Shown here: piece after piece, positions 14,695-20,211 of the stretch
Layout of the letters: the number at the start of each line of letters is the position of its first letter
Numbering within the stretch: position 1 is the stretch's first letter
Virus record (IMG/VR): IMGVR_UViG_3300027963_000379
Span: 1-21,620 of that record
Reading direction: 5' to 3' (one strand)
From: a virus
Length of the DNA stretch: 21,620 bases
The notes under the pieces: generated by a model
Seen by the model: the letters and a program-made list of their open reading frames with translations, nothing else
Told to the model about the DNA's origin: nothing
Databases searched by the model: none
Program-made: the position numbers and the translations under genes

Positions 14695-15177
14695 ATGACA
14701 AAAAAATTAGAAAAATTGTTTGATCTTGGCAGTGCTGAAGAAGCCCTTATTGGTCCTACTCCTGTAGATGCTACGCCCGTTAATGCAGTCAATCTGCAAG
14801 AGCAACTTGAAGAATTTGATAAAATTTCATCAGCACTGCCAAGAGTAAAAGGCTTAGGAGACATCAGTGATGCAGAACTAGATGCACTAGCTGGTAAAGC
14901 AGAACAGGCCTATGACGATTTAATGGATCTAGGTATGAATGTAGATCCTAGACACGGTGGTAAAATGTTTGAAGTTGCTGCACAAATGATGAACGCAGCA
15001 ATCACTGCCAAAAGTGCTAAAATTGATAAAAAGCTAAAAATGGTCGAACTACAGCTAAAAAAGCTGGCAATAGACAAAAAACATGCAGGTCCTGAAAGCA
15101 ATACCATCGAAGGAGAGGGGTATATTATCAGTGATCGTAACAGCATCTTGGAAAAACTTAAATCTTTGAATAAATAA
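14695..15177 (+). CDS. gp16: Terminase small subunit gp16
   Basis: The 160-residue protein is read as the small terminase subunit, which binds DNA and regulates the gp17 motor. Like T4 gp16 (164 residues) it has an acidic N-terminal part, a central helical region that would form the oligomerising coiled coil (MFEVAAQMMNAAITAKSAKI, then KKLKMVELQLKKLAIDKK), and a short C-terminal tail (EGYIISDRNSILEKL). The T4 protein has the comparable stretch MEVFATLMGQMTTTNREIL. Primary sequence similarity in this family is low, so the call rests on layout, length and the nearby gp17. The start is fixed by the late motif 5 nt upstream. Confidence 0.75.
   Translation: MTKKLEKLFDLGSAEEALIGPTPVDATPVNAVNLQEQLEEFDKISSALPRVKGLGDISDAELDALAGKAEQAYDDLMDLGMNVDPRHGGKMFEVAAQMMNAAITAKSAKIDKKLKMVELQLKKLAIDKKHAGPESNTIEGEGYIISDRNSILEKLKSLNK
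15169..15176 (+). promoter_or_regulatory. T4-type late promoter AATAAATA, 5 nt before ATG (leaderless class)
   Basis: AATAAATA ends 5 nt before the ATG at 15182 and overlaps the gp16 stop codon (15175-15177). No Shine-Dalgarno site is visible. Confidence 0.62.
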
Positions 15178-15181
15178 AGTT

Positions 15182-15769
15182 ATGAAATCATTTAAAGACT
15201 ACCTTACAGAAAGCAAAAAGACCTACGATTTTCGTGTAAAAATCGCCGGGGATATGACTACAGAGCAAGAAACTCTGTTAAAATCCAGCCTTGATAAATT
15301 TCAAATAAGTGGATTTAAAAAGACAGGCAAAACTCCTATTCAAGAACTACCCCTAGATTTTCCGCAGGTTAAAAACTGTGAAGTCAATATCTACGAAGTA
15401 GTACTAAATTATCCTACTACTCAAAACGAGCTAACTGAATATCTCAGCGACAGTTTAAAAATCAATAAAAAGCATTTAGTTGTGAGAAGTCCGGGAGAGC
15501 CCACAGAAGAATATCAACAACAAGAAGCTCCGCGTAAAGGTGCTTTGTTAGACGACGCCGAATATAGTGAAGCACCTAATGCTAAATTTGAAGATTATTA
15601 CGGTGACAAGTATAACAGTGGATTTGTCAAAGAATTAAATGATATCCTGAAGCTACAGCGTAAGGCACGTGGAGAACAAATTCCTACTGAATCAGCAGCA
15701 AAATACAATACAGATGCAGACGTTAATACAAATTCAGTAATGACACAAGCACCCGATCCAAGGAAATAA
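15182..15769 (+). CDS. Probable internal head protein with T4-type capsid-targeting sequence
   Basis: The 195-residue protein begins MKSFKDYLTES. This lines up residue for residue with the capsid-targeting sequence of T4 internal proteins (MKTYQEFIAE), which directs them into the prohead and is cut after Glu10 by protease gp21. The expected cut would be between Glu10 and Ser11. The rest has an alpha/beta domain at about residues 14-105 (YDFRVKIAGDM through KKHLVVRSPGE), then a polar acidic tail (EDYYGDKYNSGFVKELNDIL and onward). The domain is not one I can name. It lies between the terminase subunit genes. A role inside the head is inferred from the N-terminus; other T4-like proteins also begin with MKxFxxF, so this is not certain. 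Confidence 0.62.
   Translation: MKSFKDYLTESKKTYDFRVKIAGDMTTEQETLLKSSLDKFQISGFKKTGKTPIQELPLDFPQVKNCEVNIYEVVLNYPTTQNELTEYLSDSLKINKKHLVVRSPGEPTEEYQQQEAPRKGALLDDAEYSEAPNAKFEDYYGDKYNSGFVKELNDILKLQRKARGEQIPTESAAKYNTDADVNTNSVMTQAPDPRK
15761..15768 (+). promoter_or_regulatory. Degenerate late motif AGGAAATA, or Shine-Dalgarno AGGA
   Basis: AGGAAATA is 5 nt before the ATG at 15774, the same spacing as the other late motifs, but lacks the T of TAAATA. AGGA could instead act as a ribosome site 9 nt before the ATG. The two readings cannot be separated by eye. Confidence 0.3.
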
Positions 15770-15773
15770 AATT

Positions 15774-16820
15774 ATGCATATGATCGATCTCGTAAAAAGA
15801 TTGGCCGAATTAGACGCCAGCAATCCCAATGTAATTAAAGAAGAGTCCGGCACTGTCAGTTGCTCCAGCTGCGGTGATAAATTTAAAATTGCTGGTCGCA
15901 AAGACGGATTCAGTCATTGTAGTGATCATAAAGGCCACAAGGCATTAGACGAAAGTGTGTCTCTAGAAGAGTGTGGTCCTATGGGCATGATGACAGGCGG
16001 CATGGATCATCATACTCCTGCCAGCATCAATATCACAGCAGATAGTGGTGATGAATTAAGCACCATGCTTCGGGATATTATGACATTAGCGGGTCGCGGT
16101 CATGCAGAACCAGATGCTGACAACATGCCTGTAGATGCAGTTGCAGTAGATATGGCCCCTCCTGCAGAAGTCAGTACGGATGGCGGAGATGATGAAAACG
16201 GTCTCATGCGTAGCATGATGGACAAACTAAATTCTACAGGCGACGAAGAAGAAACTGACGAGTCTGACGACAGAGTTTATGACAACAGCCCAGATGAAGA
16301 AACGGAAGATTACAGTGCATTAACACGTCACGGTGATCTAAATAAGAATTCAGTGCAGGGTGATCGTATGGACGGTAATATGCCCAAGGCACATGTTACA
16401 ATGGAAGATCAGTTGATGGCAGACTGGAAACAGTTTATGACCGAAGGTGTGGCGGAAGGCGAAGGCAAGACACAAAAGTACGAAATGATGCTGAAAAATG
16501 GACAAGTAAAAAAGTTCATTGCCAAAGATGATGCCGATGCCAAACGCATTGCCGCAGGACACAGTGCTAAAAGTGTTATTAAGATGAAAGGCGATGTTCC
16601 TGGTGACAAAATAGCAGAGCAAGGTGTGGCGGAAGGTGACAGCGGAGCAAAATACCGTGTCAAATCGGTTGGTAATGATGTTAACCCAGCAACCGATGAA
16701 AGATGTGACTACTATATTAATCCTGTAACTGACAAAAAAGTTTACTGTAAGCCTGGACAAAAAGTCAGCAAAGGCGATCATGTAAACCCCACCACAGGCA
16801 AGGTTACACCTAAGGTTTAA
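15774..16820 (+). CDS. Acidic virion-associated protein with zinc-finger-like motif and GVAEG repeat cassette
   Basis: I do not recognise a named function for this 348-residue protein. It has four parts. An N-terminal helix is followed by a CxxC-x15-CxxH motif (C30, C33, C49, H52), possibly zinc-binding. A long acidic Met/Asp/Glu-rich region (residues 65-220) includes IMTLAGRG and VAVDMAPPAE. Two copies of GVAEG (225-229 and 284-288) enclose a basic segment (KYEMMLKNGQVKKFIAKDDA). The C-terminal part has three NPxT[DG] repeats. The ATG at 15774 follows the upstream stop closely; a second ATG at 15780 is possible. Composition and location suggest a head or core protein. The GVAEG modules look like later additions to the C-terminus. 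A terminator follows the gene. Confidence 0.62.
   Translation: MHMIDLVKRLAELDASNPNVIKEESGTVSCSSCGDKFKIAGRKDGFSHCSDHKGHKALDESVSLEECGPMGMMTGGMDHHTPASINITADSGDELSTMLRDIMTLAGRGHAEPDADNMPVDAVAVDMAPPAEVSTDGGDDENGLMRSMMDKLNSTGDEEETDESDDRVYDNSPDEETEDYSALTRHGDLNKNSVQGDRMDGNMPKAHVTMEDQLMADWKQFMTEGVAEGEGKTQKYEMMLKNGQVKKFIAKDDADAKRIAAGHSAKSVIKMKGDVPGDKIAEQGVAEGDSGAKYRVKSVGNDVNPATDERCDYYINPVTDKKVYCKPGQKVSKGDHVNPTTGKVTPKV
16444..16636 (+). repeat. In-frame 16-nt direct repeat coding GVAEG, 177 nt apart
   Basis: The 16-mer AAGGTGTGGCGGAAGG occurs at 16444-16459 and 16621-16636. Both copies are in the same frame and code for GVAEG. The 177-nt period is exactly 59 codons, so loss or gain of one unit would keep the frame. 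The repeat is more GC-rich than the surrounding sequence. Confidence 0.85.
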
Positions 16821-16879: not shown

Positions 16880-18460
16880 ATGGCTATAAAACAAACCAAA
16901 CTGGTAAAAACCGCTCACAGCCAGCAAAAATTTAATCAACAGCAAATTGATGATCTTGTTGCCTGTAGTGATCCCAAAACCGGTCCTCATTATTTTTTAG
17001 ATAACTTTTTCTATATACAGCATCCAGTTAAAGGGCAACTTCGGTACGAAGCATTTGAGTATCAGCGTAGATTAATAGACAGTTATCACGATCATAGATT
17101 TAATGTAAATCTACTGCCTAGACAGACAGGTAAGACTACTACCGCAGCAGGTTACCTATTGTGGTTTGCCATGTTCATTCCTGACAGTACCATACTAATT
17201 GCTGCACACAAATATACAGGTGCTCAAGAGATTATGAATCGTGTGAGATATGCCTACGAGCTGTGTCCTGATCATATTCGCTGCGGTGCCACCAGTTATA
17301 ACAAACAGAGTATAGAATTTGACAATGGATCACGTATTGTAGCACAGACTACAACTGAAACAACTGGTCGTGGTATGAGTTTGAGCCTGCTGTATGCTGA
17401 TGAGTTTGCATTTGTTCCACCTAATGTGGCCACTGAATTCTGGACTTCTATCAGTCCTACACTGGCTACTGGTGGTAAAGCAATTATTACATCAACGCCA
17501 AATAGTGACGAAGATCAGTTTGCACAGATTTGGAAAGAAGCCAATTACAGGTTTGATGAACATGGTAACCAAGCCAAGATCGGTCGCAATGGATTCTTTC
17601 CGTTTAAAGCACACTGGAGTGAGCATCCCGAACGTGATGAAAAATGGGCCGAGGTCGAACGTAGTCGTATTGGGGAAGAACGATTTAGACGAGAACACGA
17701 AGTTGAATTTCTTGTATTTGATGAAACACTAATTAATAGCATTAAGTTGTCTACTCTAGAAGGTCGAGATCCTTTTATGAAGATGGGGCAGGCTCGATGG
17801 TATAAACGGATCAAGACCCATTCTAGTTATATAGTGGCACTAGACCCTAGTCTAGGTACAGGTGGCGATCCTGCTGCTATACAAATACTGGAAATACCCA
17901 GTTTTGAACAGGTAGCCGAATGGCAACATAACCTGACTCCTATTCAGGGACAGGTTAGAATCTTGAGAGACCTCTGTAATTATATCAATGACGAGTGTAC
18001 CAAGCACGGATCACAGGCCAATATTTACTACAGCGTAGAAAATAATGCAGTAGGTGAAGCAGCATTAGTGGCCATTGACGAATTGGGGGAACAAAGTATA
18101 CCTGGGCTGTTTTTGAGCGAGCCCATTAAGAAAGGACACATAAGGCGGTTCCGAAAAGGGTTCAATACTACACACAGTAGTAAAATTGCCATCTGTGCCA
18201 AATTAAAACACTTGATCGAAAGTGACAGACTTAAATTATTCAGCAAGCCATTGATCAGTGAGTTAAAAACCTATGTGGCTAAAGGCATCAGTTTTGAAGG
18301 CAAAGCGGGCAGTCATGACGATCTTGTCAGCAGTCTATTATTAGCGTTAAGAATGGTTATCATGTTGCAAGAATGGGATCCTGCCATCTATGACAAGATG
18401 CGGGAAGAACGCGACGATGAATGGATCATGCCCCTGCCCATCTATGTCAGCAATTTTTAA
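16880..18460 (+). CDS. gp17: Terminase large subunit gp17
   Basis: The 526-residue protein is the ATP-driven DNA packaging motor and nuclease. The N-terminal ATPase has a Walker A motif PRQTGKTTT (from residue 80), a Walker B motif LLYADEFAF (D174, catalytic E175), and a coupling motif IITSTPN. The C-terminal RNase H-like nuclease keeps three acidic positions: D322 in ALDPSLGTGGDP, E387 in VENNAVGEAAL, and D480/D481 in GSHDDLVSSLLLALRM. These correspond to D401, E458 and D542 of T4 gp17. T4 gp17 has 610 residues; this shorter form is usual in environmental T4-like phages. It partners with gp16, located 1.7 kb upstream. The start is fixed by the late motif; no Shine-Dalgarno site is present. 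Confidence 0.97.
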   Translation: MAIKQTKLVKTAHSQQKFNQQQIDDLVACSDPKTGPHYFLDNFFYIQHPVKGQLRYEAFEYQRRLIDSYHDHRFNVNLLPRQTGKTTTAAGYLLWFAMFIPDSTILIAAHKYTGAQEIMNRVRYAYELCPDHIRCGATSYNKQSIEFDNGSRIVAQTTTETTGRGMSLSLLYADEFAFVPPNVATEFWTSISPTLATGGKAIITSTPNSDEDQFAQIWKEANYRFDEHGNQAKIGRNGFFPFKAHWSEHPERDEKWAEVERSRIGEERFRREHEVEFLVFDETLINSIKLSTLEGRDPFMKMGQARWYKRIKTHSSYIVALDPSLGTGGDPAAIQILEIPSFEQVAEWQHNLTPIQGQVRILRDLCNYINDECTKHGSQANIYYSVENNAVGEAALVAIDELGEQSIPGLFLSEPIKKGHIRRFRKGFNTTHSSKIAICAKLKHLIESDRLKLFSKPLISELKTYVAKGISFEGKAGSHDDLVSSLLLALRMVIMLQEWDPAIYDKMREERDDEWIMPLPIYVSNF

Positions 18461-18466
18461 TAAATA
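18459..18466 (+). promoter_or_regulatory. T4-type late promoter AATAAATA, 5 nt before ATG (leaderless class)
   Basis: The motif overlaps the gp17 stop (18458-18460) and ends 5 nt before the ATG at 18472. This spacing decides the start of the next gene, whose frame is also open further upstream. Confidence 0.65.
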
Positions 18467-18471
18467 ATGCA

Positions 18472-20211
18472 ATGAAGCCTATACAAATTATCAGCCAAGA
18501 TCTATTCGACAAAATTCGCAGCCGTTTCAGTAACCTAGAAATGGGGGATGAGACTGGTGCAGTGACCATCGAACCAACAGCAGCACGTTTTTTTGATTTT
18601 GACTTCGTCAGAGAAGGAGTAGATCTAGGGCGAGTTAGCATCAGCTTAAACGATTTAGGCAGTCTTAAAGTCTATTATAGTCAAGGTATCACAGAAGGTG
18701 AAGACGACAGTAGCAAACAATTATGGTATGATTTTCTTAAAGAAATGAGATTTTTTGCCATGCGTAGGCTATTGAGATTTGACACCAGAGACATTGCCAA
18801 AACCAATCTTGACAAAAATGATTTTCAACACCTTGCTAAAACACAGGGGCCCAAGGAAGAAACTATGACAACAATGAATGAAAGCCAATGGAACCATAAA
18901 AGCTCAAAGAAAACCAGTCGTGCGGTCAAGGGCCGTACAGAGGTTATTATGAGACATCATAATCCAGTATCAGAAACATATCCAGGTGCTCGTAGCCAAC
19001 GTAAAAACATCAAGGCAATTTTTATTCAGAACAGAGACGGTGAGCGTTTTAAATATCCTTTTATACATCCAGCAGGTGCATTTGCCATGGCTCAACACGT
19101 AGATCATGGTGGTGCTCCACACGATCCAGCAGGCAAGGCCATTATCAGCATCAGCGAGCAAATTGCACAACTAAGCGAATTTCAACGTAAAATACAACAT
19201 CAAACACTGCACGACGATGCAACAGGAATAACAGAAAGGGCCATAGGCCGACTTACAGAACTAAAAGCAAAGATTGCTGCTTTAGGCAAACGTCATCATT
19301 ATGAATCATGGCTCAGTGAATTTACTGAACAACAACCTATGGACGATGGACTAGAATTAGACGCCGTTACTATGGAAGATTACAAGAGCAAATTTACACA
19401 GAAAAATTTCCAAGAAGAATTAACACAATTTTTTCCTTTAATTCATCGCATAATGCAGGAGGCTAATAAAGTAGAATTAGAAGATTTTGTCAAAGAACAA
19501 GAACAAGAAGATGATATAGAAGAAACTGTAAAAGAAGACATATTCAATGAATTTGAACAATGGGCAGAAGCAATGGAACAGAATGTGTTCGACATCGAAC
19601 AACTAACTGCTGCCATGGAGGCTTTGCCACAACCGTTGTCGTTAGCAGACGAAGTCAGCGTTGATGAAACCGTACGGTTCTTTAACGAACACGGAATTCA
19701 AGATCCAGAACTAGAACAAAATCTCAAAGATCAGGCAAGAATTGATTCAACAGCAGATCCTGTAAAAGAAGTATTGTTACCATGGGCACAACAACCAGAA
19801 AATCAAGAACAATATCCAGGCCTAACAGAACTATTAACCACATATGCCGGTGGAGAGGAACCCCAGGGAGAAACTCCACCTGCAGAGCCGGCGGCTACAG
19901 AACCAGCACCGGATCAGGAGCAACCTGTAGCAGAATCCCGTGATTTTAAGAAAATGGCTAGAGAAGTTGTAGAAATGGTAAAAACACGGTTCAATCGAGA
20001 TAATCCCAATATGGAAGCGTTTAACGGACACGAAGGCATTTTAACTGATGTAGAAAAACATGTTAAAGAAAACTACGGTGATGAAGTTGCTGAAGCGGCT
20101 AGACAGGTGGCAGAAAAGGCCATGTCCAAAATGACTCATATGTGGAAGCAACGACACGGGCATGATTACGAAATGGAAAGCATCCTCAAATTGGCAGGTA
20201 TGAAAAAATAA
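18472..20211 (+). CDS. Large conserved T4-like phage protein of unknown function, probable virion protein
   Basis: The frame is open from 18421 inside gp17, but ATG 18472 (MKPIQIISQDLF, 579 residues) is preferred for its late motif. The N-terminal 100 residues form a mixed alpha/beta domain. A conserved block follows: KTSRAVKGRTEVIMRHHNPV, then GARSQRKNIKAIFIQN, then GERFKYPFIHPAGAFAMAQH and VDHGGAPHD. A helical region (about 230-400) is very acidic (EQEQEDDIEETVKEDIF). A Pro/Glu/Ala-rich linker (about 475-505) leads to a helical C-terminal domain ending ESILKLAGMKK. I recall proteins with the GAR...I.fIQ..GERFkyP...l.GArAM..H pattern in uncultured T4-like phages, where they are unnamed. It has no membrane segment. 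Late promoter and position next to terminase suggest a head or neck component. Confidence 0.7.
   Translation: MKPIQIISQDLFDKIRSRFSNLEMGDETGAVTIEPTAARFFDFDFVREGVDLGRVSISLNDLGSLKVYYSQGITEGEDDSSKQLWYDFLKEMRFFAMRRLLRFDTRDIAKTNLDKNDFQHLAKTQGPKEETMTTMNESQWNHKSSKKTSRAVKGRTEVIMRHHNPVSETYPGARSQRKNIKAIFIQNRDGERFKYPFIHPAGAFAMAQHVDHGGAPHDPAGKAIISISEQIAQLSEFQRKIQHQTLHDDATGITERAIGRLTELKAKIAALGKRHHYESWLSEFTEQQPMDDGLELDAVTMEDYKSKFTQKNFQEELTQFFPLIHRIMQEANKVELEDFVKEQEQEDDIEETVKEDIFNEFEQWAEAMEQNVFDIEQLTAAMEALPQPLSLADEVSVDETVRFFNEHGIQDPELEQNLKDQARIDSTADPVKEVLLPWAQQPENQEQYPGLTELLTTYAGGEEPQGETPPAEPAATEPAPDQEQPVAESRDFKKMAREVVEMVKTRFNRDNPNMEAFNGHEGILTDVEKHVKENYGDEVAEAARQVAEKAMSKMTHMWKQRHGHDYEMESILKLAGMKK

Follow-up and report, generated by a model that had tools for sequence, protein, structure and literature searches.

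A 195-aa protein encoded by a T4-like viral genome fragment starts with MKSFKDYLTE, which is probably a capsid-targeting sequence of the T4 type: the protein would be targeted to the prohead and then cut after Glu10. The DNA analyzed, referred to here as the window, is a viral record of 21,620 bases with a T4-like myophage gene set that includes sheath, tube-like, gp4-like, TerL and gp32-like genes. The open reading frame (ORF) of the 195-aa protein lies at 15182-15769 (+) and its product begins MKSFKDYLTESKKTYDFRVKIAG; positions 15182-15214 encode MKSFKDYLTES, the N-terminal end of this ORF. In the proposed pathway, the protein would be synthesized late, and its N-terminal helix (Phe4, Tyr7, Leu8) would dock on the prohead core and carry it into the prohead. 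The gp21-type serine protease of the phage would cleave after Leu8-Thr9-Glu10, a site of the major-capsid-protein type, and the product would be a mature virion protein with the new N-terminus SKKTYDF. Its body combines a ferredoxin-like domain with a flexible tail; most likely this is a conserved part of the head, located inside it or on its inner wall, and not a lineage-specific host-takeover factor. The features of the locus are listed below, with a slash marking cut sites here and throughout.

15171..15176 (+): TAAATA, T4 late-promoter-like, 11 nt upstream of the ATG
15182..15211 (+): codons 1-10, MKSFKDYLTE, presumed capsid-targeting sequence and propeptide (T4 IPII/IPIII class match, conservation, IPIII mutants)
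15209..15214 (+): predicted prohead-protease cut Glu10/Ser11, with P4-P1' as at the presumed major-capsid-protein site of the clade
15212..15769 (+): predicted mature body of the 195-aa virion-type protein (phrog_14802), including the stop codon (phrog_14802 E 4.8e-7; virion homologues)
15224..15487 (+): ferredoxin-like domain, residues 15-102 (AlphaFold model, Foldseek)
14695..15177 (+): gene in the small-terminase position, putative only (phrog_16202, annotated as of unknown function)
15774..16820 (+): downstream gene; its product has GVAEG repeats and a LAG motif, and RLAE/L near the N-terminus (sequence, motif scan)
16880..18460 (+): terminase large subunit, TerL (phrog_36964 E 2.6e-113; PF03237)
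Candidate S77-protease peptides: MKSFKDYLTESKKTYD in the 195-aa family (Glu10) and ENTRKYLAESATAG in the shell protein

Genomic setting and the N-terminal tag

The initial annotation placed the 195-aa gene between the terminase genes. TerL is clear at 16880-18460, and an extra gene (15774-16820) separates it from the 195-aa ORF. The upstream partner is less certain: the 14695-15177 product belongs to phrog_16202, and its profile comparison with T4 gp16, a weak test with four sequences, gave no match; its identification as the small terminase subunit was not adopted. The homologues in PA5oct, 121Q and RaK2 lie after the gp4-like gene, one gene further along. Near its N-terminus, the 15774-16820 product carries RLAE/L and is thus a possible second protease substrate. 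This product also contains two GVAEG repeats and a DIMTLAG motif. Similar motifs are found in a 596-aa protein (18421-20211) with a C-terminal ILKLAGM, in both neighbors in the large relative G002 (ILKLAGL), and at the start of PA5oct EST35_0203 (DILRLAGV). Judged from their sequence, these LAG-type motifs are possibly a short binding motif common to head proteins.

TAAATA occurs within 30 nt 5′ of the 195-aa gene in 81 of 81 relatives, mostly at -13 or -11, and is enriched 15.6-fold and 24.5-fold upstream of genes in two large relatives (G001 and G002). In the window and in these two relatives, the hexamer stands 10-13 nt 5′ of many starts that have no clear Shine-Dalgarno site; in the window, the starts with an upstream TAAATA are 7040, 12631, 14695, 15182 and 16880. 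A late transcription start would then fall at or adjoining the ATG, and late mRNAs may therefore be almost leaderless.

T4 ipII and ipIII, translated from NC_000866, both start MKTYQEFIAE/A. The residue-class match to the T4 targeting peptide reported by the initial annotation is right at all ten positions, with identity only at M1, K2 and E10. T4 ipI starts MKTFKEF and lacks Glu at residue 10, T4 gp24 starts MAKINELLRE/S, and T4 gp23 has FLTE/A at residue 65. All 81 close-family locus sequences keep F/Y4, Y/H7, L8 and E10, that is, aromatic or hydrophobic residues at 4 and 7 of a roughly ten-residue N-terminus and, in this clade, a candidate protease site of the L/I-x-E type at residues 8-10; positions 3, 5, 6, 9 and 12 are variable. 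Column entropy (63 unique sequences) is accordingly about zero at 2, 4, 8 and 10, and positions 3, 5, 6, 9 and 12 have high values. Three of the 81 (L030, L066 and L073) have no start codon where Met1 aligns, and their protein is probably slightly longer. Residues 2-11 rank 9th of 109 windows of the protein, among the most conserved stretches and not at the top. In T4 IPIII, mutations show targeting to depend mainly on residues 4 and 7, and processing on residues 8 and 10; an Asp10 mutant blocks processing while targeting is retained (PMC9026906). The positions conserved in the 195-aa family are thus the determinants mapped in IPIII.

The predicted cut and lineages without Glu10

The predicted cut resembles that of the shell protein. 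At the equivalent of the T4 gp23 cut, the major capsid protein of the clade (71 readable sequences) has KYLAE/SA, KYLSE/SA, KHLTE/SA and similar. The cut expected in the 195-aa family, [Y/H]-L-x-E/S, is the same as this presumed maturation site, including the alternation of Y and H. In G001, whose proteome comprises 69,179 aa, there are six occurrences of the joint pattern; just two lie in the first 60 residues of a protein, one in the capsid protein (residue 41) and one in the target (residue 10). G002 has 12 occurrences, of which five are this close to the N-terminus, including those in the capsid protein and the target. The window is a 21.6-kb fragment without the head-gene block and without a protease gene. 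The initial annotation suggested looking for a gp21-type protease; this protease (PF03420, S77) is present in five of seven large relatives as well as in the cultured jumbo phages PA5oct, 121Q and RaK2.

A profile search recovers family members from PA5oct, 121Q, RaK2, Atu_ph07, Phosso, Munch and more environmental contigs. The same search finds nothing in the T4 genome, neither a homologue of the 195-aa protein nor homology of its body to a T4 internal protein. In these deep relatives, identity of the bodies to the window protein is 19-49%, and residues 1-11 are mostly 64-73% kept, less so in Phosso (45%) and RaK2 (27%). For instance, Atu_ph07 has the N-terminus MKTLQDYLTESKK on a body of 19% identity. 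The annotation of its homologue AUZ94910.1 (L211:6001-6088) begins at an internal start and so misses this N-terminus, which is read from a start 29 codons upstream. Ten deep representatives, each below 55% identity, have F or L at residue 4 (10/10), Y or F at residue 7 (9/10) and Leu8 (9/10). Residue 10 is Glu in six of them, Asp in two (RaK2 and G012), Ala in PA5oct and Ser in Phosso; in Munch it is also Ser.

The cultured relatives PA5oct, RaK2, Munch and Phosso have thus lost Glu10 while residues 4 and 7 remain hydrophobic, which means that the family does not depend on cutting. The capsid proteins of the Glu10-less lineages still have L-x-E-type sites. The starts of these four phages resemble the T4 Asp10 mutant, which is targeted and uncut, and the simplest reading of the sequences is loss of processing with targeting maintained; the alternative is a docking helix that was never cut.

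In its wider form, the latter idea makes the N-terminal helix a docking element that stays on the mature virion protein of the head, neck or tail, with L-x-E retained for binding only. The Glu10-less members do keep Leu8 and the hydrophobic face, the gene adjoins gp4 and tail genes, and the detection of homologues in virions fits head or tail alike. However, Glu10 is invariant in the clade (81/81) while position 9 is free, P4-P1' copies the shell-protein site down to the Y/H alternation, and both unrelated bodies and T4 internal proteins bear this start. Permanent docking is therefore unlikely, and targeting followed by cleavage is preferred. This latter model predicts a peptide starting at Ser11 in L-x-E members and an intact start in PA5oct or RaK2.

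Virion presence and the body of the protein

Residues 1-111 of the 195-aa protein match phrog_14802 (head and packaging, virion structural protein; E 4.8e-7), and a Pfam search of the protein returned no family. The record of the PA5oct homologue, EST35_0202, carries an ESI-MS/MS note. Another homologue, CBB_210 (MNKLQKILTELTPEYSYRVK), was identified in purified virions by 13 unique peptides with 60.5% coverage (PMC5259590). Presence in the virion, a property of T4 IPI-III, is thus seen through the homologues in PA5oct and CBB, and in whole virions comprising head and tail. Two further records were set aside. The RaK2 homologue is a "virion structural protein" in RefSeq and a "hypothetical protein" in the original record, and its virion detection was not counted. 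The phAPEC6 protein gp270c (16.2 kDa, 41% coverage) may correspond to the homologue, with its annotation beginning at a late start codon, and was left out of the evidence. With the positions mapped in IPIII, the shell-protein site, the protease of the relatives and the homologues in virions, the earlier prediction of prohead packing and a cut after Glu10 holds up as the probable course of events.

AlphaFold models a ferredoxin-like domain at residues 15-102 (strand-helix-strand-strand-helix-strand, pLDDT mostly 75-85), preceded by a lower-confidence helix at residues 4-10 and followed by a weak tail. The best Foldseek matches are S6-type folds at low TM-score, and the others are generic ferredoxin-like folds and unnamed phage proteins. 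A profile search against solved structures gave no match for the 195-aa protein, and neither this search nor Foldseek revealed an enzyme or effector signature in the body. The gene is single-copy and common to several jumbo-phage genera. Its position after a gp4-like gene and the TAAATA in 81 of 81 relatives favor a conserved head component.

These properties bear on the proposal of the initial annotation that the body is a host-takeover factor. For an internal head protein that would be injected to take over or disarm the host, T4 IPI provides a precedent: it enters the host by injection and counteracts a restriction system there (PMC9026906), and the tag is of the T4 IPI type. The 195-aa gene, by contrast, is single-copy and conserved across several jumbo-phage genera within a structural gene block, whereas T4 internal proteins are poorly conserved (PMC9026906), and its structural match is a generic ferredoxin-like fold with no effector-like match. 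We thus consider the takeover role quite improbable and favor a structural part in the head.

Distribution of the tag and comparison with known systems

A 30-nt degenerate pattern of the motif was searched in 22 records. It gave a single match per clade record in 11, always in the 195-aa gene, and elsewhere it matched T4 ipII, ipIII and 61.1 as well as a single site in 121Q. Read backwards, it matched once in the 22 records, in 121Q. In two large relatives, the strict motif occurs at two of 487 predicted gene starts, both of the 195-aa gene, and at none of 2,594 internal Met codons. T4 61.1 (L251:966-1130), a 54-aa ORF, starts MKTFKEFIKE and looks, from this start, like an unrecognized capsid-targeted protein. 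Because this ORF, which has no assigned function, carries the start as well, the pattern is no proof of packing. With a looser pattern, other starts were observed: MKINELLVE/N on an Ala-rich protein in the head-gene block of G002, MKINDIITE/G on a small protein between the portal and scaffold genes of PA5oct, and a 64-aa ORF of G001.

The initial annotation also raised the occurrence of the same start on other proteins of this genome. In the window's clade the gene-start scan and the 30-nt pattern found the strict start on no other protein; in four other T4-like contigs such starts occur three or four times each. A narrower pattern, MKTFKE[YF]LxE, matched at least 120 IMG/VR stretches, and a control with scrambled codon order gave zero matches in IMG/VR viral contigs. 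Among the matches listed, 78 ORFs of at least 40 aa with this start were grouped by BLAST of their bodies into 19 groups: the 195-aa family (46 ORFs) and 18 other, unrelated bodies. Also among these matches, four contigs (G015, G017, G018 and G023) each have three or four tagged starts, mostly clustered or in tandem, on unrelated bodies; their loci are L363, L489, L493, L495 and L496, and one body appears by eye to be HAD-type phosphatase-like. The S77 protease is seen in G015, G017 and G023. Among the matches listed, six of the 15 contigs bearing the start on other bodies have the protease, the remainder being mostly short fragments. As judged from sequence, this distribution is the pattern expected of a modular tag. 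A 420-aa protein (L351-L354) with an unrelated body starts MKKFTDFLTEA, and its first ten residues are those of the G013 target homologue.

That a short amphipathic N-terminus resembles the T4 peptide by chance, with 3 of 10 residues identical to IPII/IPIII, is strongly disfavored and barely credible against conservation in 81 of 81 sequences, a single match per clade record over an almost nil background, and zero scrambled-codon matches to at least 120 true-pattern matches in viral contigs. More tentatively, the T4 tag may be a general cargo tag in environmental and jumbo phages of the T4 superfamily, in which targeting through residues 4 and 7 was repeatedly kept and cleavage at residue 10 lost; proteins would be cut in the window clade and packed uncut elsewhere, and packed proteins might be predictable from their first ten residues. 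These results extend a targeting-and-cleavage system mapped by mutation in one phage to uncultured and jumbo phages, where the tag sits on a conserved virion protein, and suggest a possible simple sequence rule to predict the contents of T4-like phage heads.

Among known systems, T4 IPII and IPIII have a ten-residue start that agrees in residue class: positions 4 and 7 are aromatic and 8 is aliphatic, followed by Glu10 and a small P1'. Their bodies are unrelated to that of the 195-aa protein, however, Phe and Tyr are swapped at 4 and 7, and they are accessory and variable whereas the 195-aa gene is conserved and single-copy. T4 gp24 likewise has a ten-residue propeptide with an L-x-E/S end, and F-L-T-E/A of gp23 is of the same type as Y-L-T-E/S of the window; unlike gp24 and gp23, the 195-aa protein has no capsid fold in the searches made. 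The closest counterparts are the phrog_14802 proteins PA5oct EST35_0202, CBB_210, 121Q gp557 and RaK2 ORF047, which share the homologous body and the position after gp4 but differ from the window protein at the predicted cut: PA5oct has Ala10, RaK2 has Asp10, and 121Q and CBB have L-T-E with Lys or Leu at P1'.
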